A stretch of 33,466 bases of DNA from Candidatus Latescibacterota bacterium. GTDB lineage: Bacteria; Hydrothermota; Tepidihabitantia; Tepidihabitantales; CAIPLT01. The stretch covers positions 1 through 33,466 of the forward strand of contig JAGXRL010000156.1 of the NCBI GenBank assembly GCA_018335915.1, given 5' to 3'. This document shows, in pieces, positions 3,825 to 9,270 of the stretch. Position numbers and translations under genes: made by a program. How positions within the stretch are numbered: the first letter of the stretch is position 1; each line of letters starts with the position of its first letter. The notes beneath the pieces are model-generated. The model was not told the origin of the DNA, did no database searches, and saw only the letters and a program-made list of their open reading frames with translations.

Positions 3825-5063
3825 TTATTCATATCTTAGAGCATCAATTGGATTAAGCTGGGCCGCCCGGTTTGCCGGGTAGATGCCAAAGAAAATTCCG
3901 ACCGCAGCGGAAAAACCGATACCTAAGAATACGGTCCAGACCGGCACTGCCGCAGACAGGGGTGAAACCGCACTGACAATTTTACCAATGCCAACTCCAA
4001 GCAAGGTGCCGATAATACCGCCGATAATCGAAAGCATAACCGCTTCGAAAAGAAACTGATACAGTATATTGCGGGTCGAGGCACCGACTGCTTTGCGCAA
4101 GCCGATTTCACGGGTGCGTTCACTGACCGCAACGAGCATAATATTCATAATCCCGATACCGCCGACCAATAAAGAGATTGCGGCAACGCCGATCATCACG
4201 ATGAAAGCAATATTGCTGATATTTTTGTAGATTTCTCTCAAACTTTCCTGGGTATTGATACCAAAATCATCAGGTTTATCATAACCGAGCCCGCGCCGGC
4301 GGCGCATCAGTTCCCGAATCTGGTCAATCGCGGGTTCGAGATGCTTAGCGCTTTTGGGCAAGACCTGAATCGAAATACCGCTGAATACGGCCTGCATGCC
4401 AATCGGTTTCGGGAAAATTTTATTAAAAGTGGAGAGCGGAATGATTATGACATTATCCTGGCTCTGACCGAAAAAACTTCCTTTCCGACCGAGCACGCCA
4501 ATGATTAATGTTCGTTTTCCGTTGATATTGATATACTTTCCGACCGGGTCTTCAGTCGGAAAAAGATTGTCAACGATATAACCGCCAACACAGCAGACTT
4601 GCCCTTTGCGATTATAATCTTCCTGATTGATGAACCGACCCGATTCGATTGAATAGTTTGTCGTGTATTGCAGGTCGGGTGTCGAGCCGGTTACTTCAAC
4701 CTGCTTGGCGGTTCGACCCTGATAGTTCAAGGATGAGATATTCGCGTTTCTTTGCGGAGCGACTTTGTCAACCGCCGGCAGTCTGGCGATTGCCCAGGCA
4801 TCGTCAATCGTAATTTCTTTGCGCTTGGCAATTTCCTGGATATCCATTCGGCCAGTACCCCAGGAGAAACGCTGCACGAAAATCGTATTTGAGCCGAGCG
4901 ACTGAATCTGCTCTTCAACCGACCGGTTCAAACCCTGGACCAGCGAGAGAATCGCGATAATGGTCATGACACCGATGACAATGCCAAGAATCGTCAAAAA
5001 AGAACGGAGCCGGTGGGTTCTTAAAATATTAAATGAAGAACTGATTAAATCTTTTATGGTCAT
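3825..5063 (-). CDS. FtsX/MacB-type ABC transporter permease
   Basis: A 412-residue inner-membrane permease of the MacB/LolC type. One N-terminal helix (LRSFLTILGIVIGVMTIIAILSL) is followed by a large periplasmic MacB-core domain (about residues 50-270). Three C-terminal helices (IAFIVMIGVAAISLLVGGIGIMNIML, FLFEAVMLSIIGGIIGTLLGVGIG and VPVWTVFLGIGFSAAVGIFFG) form the FtsX domain, and SERTREIGLRKAVGA is its typical cytoplasmic coupling loop. Unlike E. coli MacB, the ATPase is a separate gene just upstream (3 nt gap), so translation is probably coupled; no clear SD is seen. Such permeases transduce ATP hydrolysis mechanically to a periplasmic adaptor and TolC rather than moving the substrate through the membrane themselves. 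The substrate is unknown. Confidence 0.93.
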   Translation of the reverse strand: MTIKDLISSSFNILRTHRLRSFLTILGIVIGVMTIIAILSLVQGLNRSVEEQIQSLGSNTIFVQRFSWGTGRMDIQEIAKRKEITIDDAWAIARLPAVDKVAPQRNANISSLNYQGRTAKQVEVTGSTPDLQYTTNYSIESGRFINQEDYNRKGQVCCVGGYIVDNLFPTEDPVGKYININGKRTLIIGVLGRKGSFFGQSQDNVIIIPLSTFNKIFPKPIGMQAVFSGISIQVLPKSAKHLEPAIDQIRELMRRRRGLGYDKPDDFGINTQESLREIYKNISNIAFIVMIGVAAISLLVGGIGIMNIMLVAVSERTREIGLRKAVGASTRNILYQFLFEAVMLSIIGGIIGTLLGVGIGKIVSAVSPLSAAVPVWTVFLGIGFSAAVGIFFGIYPANRAAQLNPIDALRYE

Positions 5064-5066
5064 CGG

Positions 5067-5741
5067 CTATTTAGTATCCTCAAGAATCTGACCGTCGAGC
5101 ATTTTTATCTGGCGACGGGCATAACCGGCAATATTCGGGTCATGTGTAACCAGAATTATCGTATTACCTTCCTGGGCAATTTCATTGAACAGAGTCATAA
5201 TTTCTTTGCCGGTTTTCGAATCCAGGTTGCCGGTCGGTTCATCGGCAAACACAACCTGGGGGTTATTTATTAAAGCACGGGCTACGGCAACCCGCTGCAT
5301 TTCACCGCCGGACAGTTCATTGGGACAATGGGTTTTACGGTGAGCAAGTCCGACCCGTTCTAATATCGCTTCGATTTTTTCATTTCGGATTCTCGAATCA
5401 ATGCCCGCATATAACAAAGGCAGTTCGACATTTTTCATGACCGTGACCCGGGGCAATAAATTGAAAGTCTGAAATACAAAACCGATTGATTGGTTTCTCA
5501 GGCGGGATAGCTCCAAATCAGAAAGACTGGTGACATCCGTATTTGACAACAAGTATTTGCCCGAAGTCGGAAGGTCGAGACAACCGAGCAGGTGCATGAG
5601 CGTTGATTTGCCAGAGCCAGACGGACCAGTAATTGCGATGTATTCACCGTTTTCAATGGCAAGGGAAACGCCGCGCAGAGCCTGGACAACATAGGTTCCG
5701 ATCGTATAGTGCCGGGTCAGGTTTTCGGTCTGGATTAACAT
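5067..5741 (-). CDS. ABC transporter ATPase, MacB/LolD type
   Basis: A 224-residue nucleotide-binding subunit. Walker A is GPSGSGKST (about residue 40), the Q-loop is in FVFQTFNLLPRVTVMKNVELPLLY, the signature is LSGGEMQRVAVARAL, Walker B with catalytic Glu is VVFADEPTGNLDS, and the switch His is in ILVTHDPNIAGYARR. FNLLPRxTVxxNVELPL is characteristic of the MacB/LolD/FtsE subfamily. It sits between the adaptor gene (2 nt upstream) and the permease gene (3 nt downstream) in one operon. It powers the permease by dimerising on ATP. Confidence 0.95.
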   Translation of the reverse strand: MLIQTENLTRHYTIGTYVVQALRGVSLAIENGEYIAITGPSGSGKSTLMHLLGCLDLPTSGKYLLSNTDVTSLSDLELSRLRNQSIGFVFQTFNLLPRVTVMKNVELPLLYAGIDSRIRNEKIEAILERVGLAHRKTHCPNELSGGEMQRVAVARALINNPQVVFADEPTGNLDSKTGKEIMTLFNEIAQEGNTIILVTHDPNIAGYARRQIKMLDGQILEDTK

Positions 5742-5743
5742 GC

Positions 5744-6838
5744 TTAATTTTGATTTGTCTTGGTGAATTTTACTTTGTCACCGTCTTTGAGCTTGGCGAG
5801 AATTTTATACGGACCGGTAATGACAATTTCACCGGGCTCGATGCCTTCGAGAATTTCCAGGTCAGTTTCACTGGCAATGCCGGTCTTGATTGCTTTGAGT
5901 TTGGCAGCATCTTTTTCAACCACAAAAACGGTCTGGGTTTCTTCGCCTTTGAGTTTTCTCCGGCCAGCCGACTGAATCGGTATCAAGAGAATACTGTCTT
6001 TTTCACTGGTTATGATTTCAGCATTGATCGACATGCCGGGACGCAGGTCAGGCGTGGTCTTATCGAGTTTGATTTCGACTTCAAAATCAGTTGCCTGGCT
6101 TACTCCGGCAAGCACGCTCTGTTTGGGCATATAACCGACCCGGCTGACCAGACCGGAAAAGGTCGTGTCTGGAAAAGCATCCATCCGGACAATTGCTCGG
6201 GCACTGGTCTTGACCAGCGGAACTTCGGTCTCATCAAGGTCGATAATGCCAATCATTTTTGACAAATCAGCAATGACCATTAAAACCGTGCCCGGATTAT
6301 TCATGGTGCCAATCATAACTGCTTCACCCTGCTCGATGTTGAGCTGGGTGACAGTACCGCTGATCGGCGCATGTATCATTGTTTTATGATAACTGTCTTG
6401 TGCTTGTTCAAGACGGGCTCGAGCAGTCCGATACGCGGCTTGGGCAGTTTCATAATTCTCAAGCGAAATCAGATTTTGAGAGTACAAAGTTTCGGTACGG
6501 ACAAATGCCTGAGCCGCCTGTTCAAACTGAACCTGAGCCAAATCCAAATTGGCTTTGGCGCTTTTCTGGTCGAGCACGCAGACAAGCTGTCCTTTATTTA
6601 CATAACCGCCTTCTTTGACATGCAGTTTTTCGACAATGCCCATGGTTTGTGCCTGAATATTGACCTGGGCTTCGGCTTTGAGTTGTCCGTCACCCGATAC
6701 TTTGGAAGTAATCGAGCCGTATTGAGCCGGCTTGGTTTCAACCAGGACGCCCTGCTCTTTAAAAACAAGATTCAAGACAATGATGATGATGATTAAAAGA
6801 ATCACGCCTAAGATAATAAATAATTTTTTCTTATTCAT
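5744..6838 (-). CDS. Periplasmic adaptor (HlyD/MacA-type membrane fusion protein)
   Basis: A 364-residue membrane-fusion protein. One N-terminal anchor helix (KLFIILGVILLIIIIIVLNLVF) is followed by the first half of a lipoyl/barrel-sandwich domain (GDGQLKAEAQVNIQAQTMGIVEKLHVKEG). A coiled-coil hairpin (about residues 105-150, ANLDLAQVQFEQAAQAF to ARLEQAQDSY) precedes the second lipoyl half (IHAPISGTVTQLNIEQGEAV), beta-barrel and membrane-proximal domains. The order matches MacA, which links the MacB-type permease to TolC. The start is supported by SD AAGGGG about 6 nt before the ATG. A 136-nt AT-rich gap separates it from the TolC-like gene, while the ATPase gene follows after 2 nt. Confidence 0.93.
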   Translation of the reverse strand: MNKKKLFIILGVILLIIIIIVLNLVFKEQGVLVETKPAQYGSITSKVSGDGQLKAEAQVNIQAQTMGIVEKLHVKEGGYVNKGQLVCVLDQKSAKANLDLAQVQFEQAAQAFVRTETLYSQNLISLENYETAQAAYRTARARLEQAQDSYHKTMIHAPISGTVTQLNIEQGEAVMIGTMNNPGTVLMVIADLSKMIGIIDLDETEVPLVKTSARAIVRMDAFPDTTFSGLVSRVGYMPKQSVLAGVSQATDFEVEIKLDKTTPDLRPGMSINAEIITSEKDSILLIPIQSAGRRKLKGEETQTVFVVEKDAAKLKAIKTGIASETDLEILEGIEPGEIVITGPYKILAKLKDGDKVKFTKTNQN

Positions 6839-6974: not shown

Positions 6975-8258
6975 TTATTTTGAATCGCTTATTCCAAGTA
7001 AGTATTCAATCTGCGCATAACTGGTATAGGCATCATAGAGTGCCGAATAATAAGTGTTTTGGGCAGTCGTAAAAGCAATCTCAGTATTGAATAAATCGAG
7101 CTGGCTCAAGGCGCCCAACCGATACTGCTCTTGCGCAAGTTTAAGCAGACTGCGGTTGAGTTCGAGATTTTTCTGGGCATAATTATACCGTTCCTGTGCT
7201 TCTTGACAAGCATAAATCGCATTGACAGCGGTTTTGCGCAAAAGGATTGCCGCTTTTTCGAGCTGAAGCACAGCGCGCAGTTTCTCATTGCGGGTATTGC
7301 CGATGTTGAGTAAATAAGACTTGATTTCAAAGACAGGAAAACTGAAGCGGACACCATAACTTATCACATCATTGTTTTTCCAGGTGTCGAGTTTTTTCGG
7401 CATGAGCGTGTCAGAATAAGTCGATGACCAGAACAAGTTTGCCGAAGGCAAAAGATTGGCAATCGATTGAGCAAAAGCAGTGCGGGCAATTGCGCGTGTT
7501 TTTCGGACTGATTGCAGAGTAAGATTATGTTCGAAAATCTGCGACAAGAGCATTTCATAATCAATGCCGAATTCTGGCAATGACGGAGTCGTGGTCGGTT
7601 TGACGATTTCATAATCGACTCGGCCGATAAATCCTTTTAAATCCTCAATATTGATTAAAAGATTTTTCCGGGCACTTAACAAATCGAGCTCGGCTTGTGC
7701 CAGATAAGTTTCCGAGCGGAGCAGTTCAAAATCAGTTATCTGTTGGAGCCGGTTTTTTGCCTGGGCAAGAAGATAATTATTCTGCGACCGCTCAAAGCTT
7801 GCTTGAGCAATCGCATATAACTGATAAGCTTTGGCAAGATTGAAATAACTGGTCTTGAGTGAATAAACGAGATTGGCAAGTTTGTCTTGTGCCTGCAGCC
7901 GGTAATAGTCATTGTAGATAACTCCTTTGGCAACATTGGCAAAAACATCGGGCGAGAAGAGCACCTGATTCAAACCGACGGTACCGGTATAAGCATAATT
8001 CGGATTTGCGGGTAAACCCGGAATCGTGATTTCATTCTTACTGTAACTTGCGGATGCGGTTGGCGTCGGTAAAAGCTGGGCAATACTGCCGGTAATGCTC
8101 AAAACCCCGCTGGTTTTATCGATTGACGCTTCTTTTATCTGCGGGCTGGATTGTTTTGCCATCTGTAATGCCTGTTCGAGCGATAAAAAGAGCGTGTCGG
8201 GCTGACTGTAACTTAAACCGGTTAACAATACCAATAATAAAAACAAAATTATTCTCAT
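6975..8258 (-). CDS. TolC-family outer-membrane efflux channel
   Basis: About 427 residues. The track start at 8300 is a TTG; ATG 8258 is preferred because it opens directly into a signal peptide (MRIILFLLLVLLTGLSYS). Two outer-membrane-efflux repeats are visible. The first runs from LSLEQALQMAKQSSPQIKEA to the coiled-coil region LLAQAKNRLQQITDFELLRSETYLAQAELDLLSARKNLL. The second runs from YEMLLSQIFEHNLTLQSVRKT to LLKLAQEQYRLGALSQLDLFNTEIAFTTAQNTYYSALYDAYTSYAQIEYLLG, with the classic QxRYxxGxxSxLDLxxAxxxL pattern. It forms the trimeric outer-membrane duct of the efflux system encoded with it. It lies 75 nt after the Yip1-like gene; no convincing separate promoter was found. Confidence 0.93.
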   Translation of the reverse strand: MRIILFLLLVLLTGLSYSQPDTLFLSLEQALQMAKQSSPQIKEASIDKTSGVLSITGSIAQLLPTPTASASYSKNEITIPGLPANPNYAYTGTVGLNQVLFSPDVFANVAKGVIYNDYYRLQAQDKLANLVYSLKTSYFNLAKAYQLYAIAQASFERSQNNYLLAQAKNRLQQITDFELLRSETYLAQAELDLLSARKNLLINIEDLKGFIGRVDYEIVKPTTTPSLPEFGIDYEMLLSQIFEHNLTLQSVRKTRAIARTAFAQSIANLLPSANLFWSSTYSDTLMPKKLDTWKNNDVISYGVRFSFPVFEIKSYLLNIGNTRNEKLRAVLQLEKAAILLRKTAVNAIYACQEAQERYNYAQKNLELNRSLLKLAQEQYRLGALSQLDLFNTEIAFTTAQNTYYSALYDAYTSYAQIEYLLGISDSK

Positions 8259-8333
8259 TATTATGTTATACGATAATTGTACAAAAAAGTTTCGAAACAA
8301 AATTCAATATTCGTGCTCCGAATTTTTCTTTGA

Positions 8334-8993
8334 TTAAGCTTGCCCGCGCATGCCGAAGATCGATGTTATGATTGCAAACAAGAGCCAGAGCCCAAAGACC
8401 AGATAATAACTCTTTTTCCCGGATATTGCATAGATGATTTTCAAGCCCAGTGCCAACAGAATCATCTGCCAGATTGTGAAGAAATCGAATTTGGACAGGA
8501 GACGGTACAGATAAGTATTTTTGCTGAGCATGGGAAAGAACAGGGCAAAACTGGTCTGCACCAAAGGCGAACCAGTGACCAGCGTGAGAATTATCCGAAT
8601 CAGCATTTGCGGAATCGTGACTAAAGCCGAACCGACCACAATACTGAAAGTCATCAGATATTTGCTGGTAATGCCGAGCAGGGGAAGGGTGAAGTTAAAA
8701 ATCAGGGAGATAAGCAGAAACATAATCGGAGTTATCACGATTGAAGAAACAATACCTGAGATGAGCACAACCGGGCTGCCAATCATTTTCTGCGCCTGTT
8801 CAAATTGTTCTGGGGTCAGGTTACGCTCCCGTAATTGTTCGAGTTGTTTTTCCGGACTGAAAGTCGATATTACAACAACTGATGCGATGACCGAAGCGAT
8901 AATAATGACTATAAGTGGAATCAGCCATTTCGGTTTTTCTTTGAGCGCGCTAAAATATTTGCTCGGTGCAAAAAAGATATCAAGAACGTTCAC
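8334..8993 (-). CDS. Yip1-family multi-spanning membrane protein
   Basis: A 219-residue integral membrane protein with the bacterial YIP1/DUF1282-like layout. The N-terminus is VLDIFFAPSKYFSALKEKPKW, followed by about five hydrophobic helices (LIPLIVIIIASVIASVVVIS, VVLISGIVSSIVITPIMFLLISLIF, YLMTFSIVVGSALVTIPQMLIRIIL, FFTIWQMILLALGLKIIYAI and YYLVFGLWLLFAIITSIFG). A charged insert, PEKQLEQLRERNLTPEQFEQAQKM, lies between helices 1 and 2. The start is GTG, fixed by an excellent SD (GAGGAGG, 4 nt away). It heads the efflux operon; in other genomes Yip1-like proteins often neighbour MacA/MacB genes, but the role is unknown. Its GTG overlaps the stop of an 11-codon upstream ORF (GTGA). Confidence 0.85.
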   Translation of the reverse strand: MNVLDIFFAPSKYFSALKEKPKWLIPLIVIIIASVIASVVVISTFSPEKQLEQLRERNLTPEQFEQAQKMIGSPVVLISGIVSSIVITPIMFLLISLIFNFTLPLLGITSKYLMTFSIVVGSALVTIPQMLIRIILTLVTGSPLVQTSFALFFPMLSKNTYLYRLLSKFDFFTIWQMILLALGLKIIYAISGKKSYYLVFGLWLLFAIITSIFGMRGQA

Positions 8994-9025
8994 GGTGCCT
9001 CCTCAATTTGCTTTATTTTACACAT
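8990..9025 (-). CDS. Candidate leader peptide (11 codons) coupled to the Yip1 gene
   Basis: The ORF MCKIKQIEEAP begins exactly 7 nt after the TATAAT of the operon promoter. Its GAG GAG GCA codons contain the SD of the next gene, and its TGA overlaps the GTG start of the Yip1 gene (GTGA). The geometry implies leaderless initiation at the 5' end, then termination-reinitiation at the Yip1 start. Evidence is positional only. Confidence 0.4.
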   Translation of the reverse strand: MCKIKQIEEAP

Positions 9026-9032
9026 ATTTTCT

Positions 9033-9060
9033 ATTATATGCTGACAGAAATTTAAGTCAA
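9033..9060 (-). promoter_or_regulatory. Promoter of the Yip1-TolC-MacAB efflux operon
   Basis: Minus strand: TTGACT (9055-9060), 16-nt spacer and a consensus TATAAT (9033-9038). An ATG follows after 7 nt (leader-peptide ORF), and the Yip1 GTG lies 39 nt after the -10. Confidence 0.7.
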
Positions 9061-9135
9061 GCGTATTAAATAGAGAGCTCGGAAAAACTCGCTCTCTTGA
9101 TTACTCAGATTTTGAGGGATTTCACAGATAACCAT

Positions 9136-9270
9136 TTTTATTGGATTTACCCCGCACCGTAATGTTTAAGAGTTGAGTGTTGCAGAGTTGAGGCGACAAA
9201 CCCCAAAACCCTCAAACTCCCAAACCCTTAAATGAGAATAGGTGCGGGGCAGGTCTGCGTCCCAATAAAA
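9136..9270. repeat. Short inverted-repeat element, copy 1
   Basis: Nested inverted arms: outer TTTTATTGG (9136-9144) with CCAATAAAA (9262-9270), and inner CCCCGCACC (9150-9158) with GGTGCGGGG (9241-9249). The roughly 80-nt centre is C/A-rich and non-coding. The inner right end (TGAGAATAGGTGCGGGG) is nearly identical to that of the copy at 25183-25290. It ends 8 nt before the -35 of the lipoprotein promoter. Confidence 0.65.

Follow-up and report, generated by a model that had tools for sequence, protein, structure and literature searches.

The 11-codon mini-ORF ahead of an efflux-like operon is predicted to be leaderless and translationally coupled, and on balance we think it probable that it loads ribosomes for re-initiation at the first gene of the operon, which is itself led by a Shine-Dalgarno (SD) sequence. 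The operon lies in the window, i.e. the whole analysed stretch of 33,466 nucleotides, from a genome of 1.93 Mb in 159 contigs (G000), and its closest named relatives are from candidate division WOR-3. An earlier note on this DNA had described TATAAT followed after 7 nt by ATG, an 11-codon ORF with the SD inside it, and a TGA overlapping the GTG start of the main gene. All of these elements are present in the sequence, and they are on the minus strand, which the earlier note had not stated. The features of the leader were read from the sequence and the genes were assigned with Pfam:

9055..9060, minus strand: -35 hexamer TTGACT (promoter score 14.2 with the 16-nt spacer)
9033..9038, minus strand: -10 hexamer TATAAT, 7 nt 5' of the ATG (exact pattern match)
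9032-9026, minus strand: AGAAAAT, the 7 nt between -10 and ATG
8990..9025, minus strand: predicted leaderless mini-ORF, ATG to TGA (the orthologous ATG has this spacing in G001 and G004 and one of 11 nt in G003)
9025-9023, minus strand: mini-ORF start codon ATG
8998..9003, minus strand: SD AGGAGG within the mini-ORF (own 16S rRNA end, GGATCACCTCCTTTCT)
8990..8993, minus strand: GTGA, 4-nt overlap of mini-ORF stop and main-gene start
8993-8991, minus strand: main-gene start codon GTG
8992-8990, minus strand: mini-ORF stop codon TGA
8334..8993, minus strand: main gene, 219 aa, Yip1-family membrane protein (PF04893, E=4.6e-13), first of the operon
6975..8300, minus strand: outer membrane efflux protein (OEP), TolC-like (PF02321)
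5744..6838, minus strand: HlyD/MacA-like membrane fusion protein
5067..5741, minus strand: ABC transporter ATPase, MacB/LolD-like
3825..5063, minus strand: MacB-like permease (PF12704 and FtsX)

The order TTGACT, 16 nt, TATAAT, 7 nt, ATG was found both by inspection of the sequence and by pattern search, and the 7-nt spacing after the -10 box is the mode among the leaderless genes of G000. The mini-ORF reads ATG TGT AAA ATA AAG CAA ATT GAG GAG GCA CCG TGA and encodes MCKIKQIEEAP. It reads the SD in the codons ATT GAG GAG GCA, 4 nt ahead of the GTG. Orthologues were found in 52 of the 61 genomes searched. The choice of GTG as the main-gene start is supported because orthologues begin at the same place. 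The 3' end of the 16S rRNA is canonical, with the anti-SD CACCTCC, and SD initiation is therefore available in G000.

Two further observations were made around the main gene. The second gene, encoding the OEP, has no obvious SD, and TATAAC is found 6 nt ahead of its likely ATG (window 8258-8330, minus strand); this gene may have a leaderless start of its own. On the other side, a dispersed repeat of ~80-110 bp occupies window positions 9063-9170 (minus strand), with copies in L002-L007, L061 and L067. Nine sizeable copies are 81-94% identical and terminate in a GAGAGCGAGTTTTTCCGAGCTCTC hairpin. A TTGACA/T -35 sequence follows within about 8-15 bp of most copies, as if the repeat adjoins promoters on their upstream side.

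According to the mechanism that we propose, a sigma-70-type promoter would direct transcription from the A of the mini-ORF's start codon or from within a base or two of it, as the spacing suggests. 70S ribosomes would bind the 5'-terminal AUG, presumably in the same way as on this lineage's numerous leaderless mRNAs, and would translate the 11 codons across the SD before terminating at the stop codon, which overlaps the GTG. At that point either the ribosome that has just terminated or its 30S subunit, caught by the adjoining SD, could start again on the GTG. The encoded peptide probably has no role of its own, and the kept feature is the 5' AUG and, genome-wide, an open frame that reaches the main start. 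The same module precedes other SD-led genes, including those for LexA, enoyl-CoA hydratase and serine hydroxymethyltransferase (SHMT). Among relatives, the mini-ORF alternates at the same promoter with a main gene of leaderless type or with an N-terminal extension that is in frame.

Leaderless initiation appears to be common in this lineage. Strong promoters were defined as TTGAC.. and a TATAAT-like hexamer with a spacer of 16-18 nt, and in G000 and G001 an ATG peak was found 5-9 nt past their -10 boxes, with no peak for GTG or TTG. When TATAAT-to-ATG distances were counted over all sequence with no -35 required, there was no peak, because most TATAAT sequences are not promoters; requiring a -35 sequence revealed it. 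Four family genomes and 300 kb of E. coli were run through the same simple gene-calling pipeline. Leaderless-type starts made up 14-21% of the genes with >60 nt upstream in the family genomes, compared to 0.7% in E. coli, which served as a control for leaderless calling only since its 8 SD genes with a strong promoter were too few for the ATG-in-leader test described below. By this measure the system is leaderless-rich, and the term 'leaderless-dominated' used in the earlier note was too strong. A class-wide search for the exact pattern TTGAC-N15-18-TATAAT-N7-ATG gave up to 29 matches per genome, compared to 0-2 for the backwards pattern. The leaderless promoter signature was seen throughout the WOR-3 class and was highest in genomes of families f6 and f9. 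A literature search found no report on leaderless initiation in WOR-3.

The orthologous operons of the family, which comprises only five genomes, were then compared. The earlier note had proposed to test whether the ATG, the frame and the stop position are kept while the peptide drifts, and this held for the ATG better than for the stop. ATG is placed exactly 7 nt past TATAAT in three of the five genomes (G000, G001 and G004) and 11 nt past it in G003, while G002 has no recognisable promoter or mini-ORF at the orthologous gene. The stop overlaps the main start as GTGA in G000 and as ATGA in G003, but the mini-ORF ends 14 nt inside the main gene in G001 and 20 nt upstream of it, before the SD, in G004. 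The four peptides, MCKIKQIEEAP in G000, MKAKIIVGGLNEFN in G001, MPVLNNI in G004 and MLKYTVIKEA in G003, are unrelated, i.e. the linkage is kept while the peptide drifts. In farther relatives the main gene itself has a leaderless-type start, 7 nt past the -10 box in G008 and 5 nt past it in G051, G033 and G060 (these orthologues are in L025, L026, L035 and L036).

Taken by itself, this locus would be a weak case against a chance arrangement, as ATG occupies ~1.7-1.9% of leader positions and a frame open over 11 codons is common. However, two other genomes have the identical spacing ahead of the orthologue. The exact pattern TTGAC-N15-18-TATAAT-N7-ATG has only 43 sites in the five whole family genomes, compared to 5 for a control with the pattern reversed. 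Three of these 43 sites precede the orthologous Yip1 gene (G000, G001 and G004). We regard chance as scarcely credible.

Enrichment of the module was examined in sampled stretches of four genomes (0.76 Mb of G000, 0.40 Mb each of G001 and G002, and 0.26 Mb of G003), in which gene starts and promoters are predictions from a home-made pipeline on partial genomes. In SD genes that had a promoter and were not leaderless, ATG occurred at 25 of 695 positions 5-9 nt past the -10 box, compared to 71 of 4267 at the remaining positions of these leaders, a 2.2-fold excess (p=0.001). No comparable excess of ATA, ATT or ATC was found at the same leader position; therefore, the ATG excess does not simply reflect a preferred initiating nucleotide. 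A total of 42 mini-ORFs were listed in the four genomes, 21 of them in G000. As the enrichment is only about 2-fold, roughly half of the listed cases could be due to chance, and those other than the conserved ones are uncertain. The genes behind the mini-ORFs are functionally unrelated, encoding LexA, SHMT, enoyl-CoA hydratase, HU, a PPIase and an ATP synthase subunit. The exact four-base overlap found at our locus is shared by 7 of the 21 G000 mini-ORFs, and overlap lengths across this set range from +1 to +23. With about twenty further G000 genes in the 0.76-Mb sample having a similar leader, these results suggest that ribosomes could be passed from the mRNA end to the next gene by a general route.

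The reading frame was informative as well. The mini-ORF frame was open to the main start in 17 of 21 cases in G000, compared to 7 of 42 for the other two frames (p=1e-6), and in 27 of 42 cases in the four genomes, compared to 22 of 84 (p=4e-5). These control frames belonged to the same leaders and were scored from the position following the ATG. This test is conservative because in-phase readers were left out of the mini-ORF set yet were counted in the controls.

These data bear on two other explanations. The mini-ORF could be a neutral by-product of pervasive translation, such that any AUG on a transcription start site is translated in a leaderless-competent lineage and the operon is unaffected. 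Most leaderless small ORFs of M. tuberculosis are without codon-level selection and were called spurious (PMC9094748), and the stop position of our mini-ORF varies among relatives. However, a by-product would not account for the enrichment of ATG over other ATN triplets at the start-site position of SD leaders, for an ATG frame that reaches the main start without a stop much more often than the other frames do, or for an ATG position that is kept despite complete peptide divergence, and we consider this explanation unlikely. Alternatively, the 5' AUG might act as a tag that recruits ribosomes or stabilises the mRNA, in which case 70S binding would matter and translation of the mini-ORF would not, a role that has been proposed for ptrB of E. 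coli. Mutation of the ptrB 5'-uAUG left less than 8% of downstream expression, compared to 40% with a start-stop version (PMC4965119), and the mini-ORF of G004 ends ahead of the SD. Yet if recruitment were all, there would be no need for a frame that is open through the SD genome-wide, and a role of this kind seems quite improbable. Translation that continues through the SD as far as the main start fits the frame result better than a 5' AUG that does no more than recruit ribosomes.

Other listed genes were compared among the relatives. At the enoyl-CoA hydratase gene, the mini-ORF ATG is at 6 nt in both G000 and G002, with different peptides that end at +11 and +1, respectively. The ATG of G003 is also at 6 nt and is in frame with the gene, that of G001 is at 10 nt, and G004 has none. 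For LexA, G000 and G003 have mini-ORFs at 6 nt and G002 has a leaderless-type main gene at 5 nt; promoter spacing is similar across L074:12400-12470, L219 and L220. Mini-ORFs precede the SHMT gene in G000 and G002. None was present at the corresponding position in any of four relatives for GAPDH, a listed case with a weak promoter. Several further listed mini-ORFs were also without conservation, and orthologue searches for two listed genes gave no match. A palindrome, CAAACGT-N13-ACGTTTG, lies directly past the -10 box of a gene for a TetR-like regulator and extends across the mini-ORF start (L115:5375-5434 and L221). It is conserved in G003 and looks like an autoregulatory operator; the ATG of this gene may have been kept for its place within the palindrome.

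The earlier note had also raised the possibility that stalling in the mini-ORF regulates efflux. In such a sensing leader peptide, a drug or the supply of cysteine or proline would control the operon. The operon is efflux-like, the last residue before the UGA is proline, and short leader peptides control resistance operons elsewhere. Against this explanation, the peptide sequence is not conserved among relatives at the same operon, similar mini-ORFs precede the housekeeping genes for SHMT, LexA and enoyl-CoA hydratase, and the 71-nt leader folds like its shuffles (z=-0.32), with no sign of the alternative structures of an attenuator. Stalling or attenuation was rejected on the basis of the unconserved peptides and this fold value, and we judge it very improbable. 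The suggestion in the same note that a mini-ORF could be the route by which ribosomes reach an SD-led gene fared better. It is supported by the ATG position, the drifting peptide, and the enrichments of ATG and of the open frame, although the overlap of stop and start is not strictly kept.

Re-initiation from a leaderless mini-ORF could have wider relevance. Coupled leaderless mini-ORFs might be the standard means of loading ribosomes onto SD-led genes throughout WOR-3, as well as an evolutionary bridge between initiation modes, which we put forward tentatively and as less than an even prospect. If so, the leaderless start at one promoter could open any of three things: the main gene, an extension of it that is in frame and contains the SD, or a coupled mini-ORF. 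Lineages could then change from leaderless to SD-led initiation or back while ribosomes continued to enter at the 5' end. The mechanism proposed for our mini-ORF would itself provide a stepwise route for the switch, and 5'-end entry and SD use could be combined in series. It would also take coupled leaderless mini-ORFs beyond Actinobacteria, into a distant and uncultivated phylum with AT-rich DNA, in whose genomes gene callers may miss both mini-ORFs and leaderless starts.

Ribosome passing of this type has until now been known mainly from mycobacteria, in which leaderless small ORFs, including a 'coupled' class with an RTGA overlap, are over-represented, and in which the linkage is conserved and the peptide is not (Shell et al. 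2015, PMC4633059). The best explanation for our mini-ORF is that it is a predicted member of this coupled class in a new lineage, related to the E. coli mRNAs with a 5'-terminal uAUG. Like the mycobacterial ORFs, which are 5-50 aa long and overlap an annotated gene by RTGA, it is short (11 aa), lies directly upstream of the main gene, overlaps it by GTGA (8993-8990) and keeps its linkage while the peptide drifts. The mycobacterial transcripts begin at the start codon, as would the transcript at the WOR-3 locus. In contrast to the mycobacterial cases, the WOR-3 mini-ORFs are from an AT-rich lineage, are predicted from sequence only, start with ATG rather than RTG, and span a strong SD; their overlap varies in length, and just one in three has the RTGA form.

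In E. coli, too, there are SD mRNAs that have an AUG at their 5' end; in some of them it controls the gene that follows, and in others it is without effect (Beck et al. 2016, PMC4965119). These mRNAs share with the predicted WOR-3 transcripts an AUG located no more than 2 nt from the 5' end, a short uORF, with an ATGA overlap in the case of rhaB, and an SD-led gene after it (PMC4965119). At our locus, AGGAGG and the 16S CACCTCC correspond to the last of these features. The E. coli mRNAs form a small set in a bacterium in which leaderless genes are rare, whereas the predicted WOR-3 mini-ORFs are enriched across a leaderless-rich lineage. Leaderless genes with an adjacent -10 box have been described previously (Zheng et al. 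2011, PMC3160421), including in Deinococcus-Thermus (PMC12340547). As in those genes, the -10 box in WOR-3 is a few nt ahead of a start codon, and orthologues switch between leaderless and SD-led initiation. Unlike them, the leaderless-type start opens a mini-ORF rather than the gene. What may be new is that a leaderless gene, an in-frame extension and a coupled mini-ORF can take one another's place at a single promoter.
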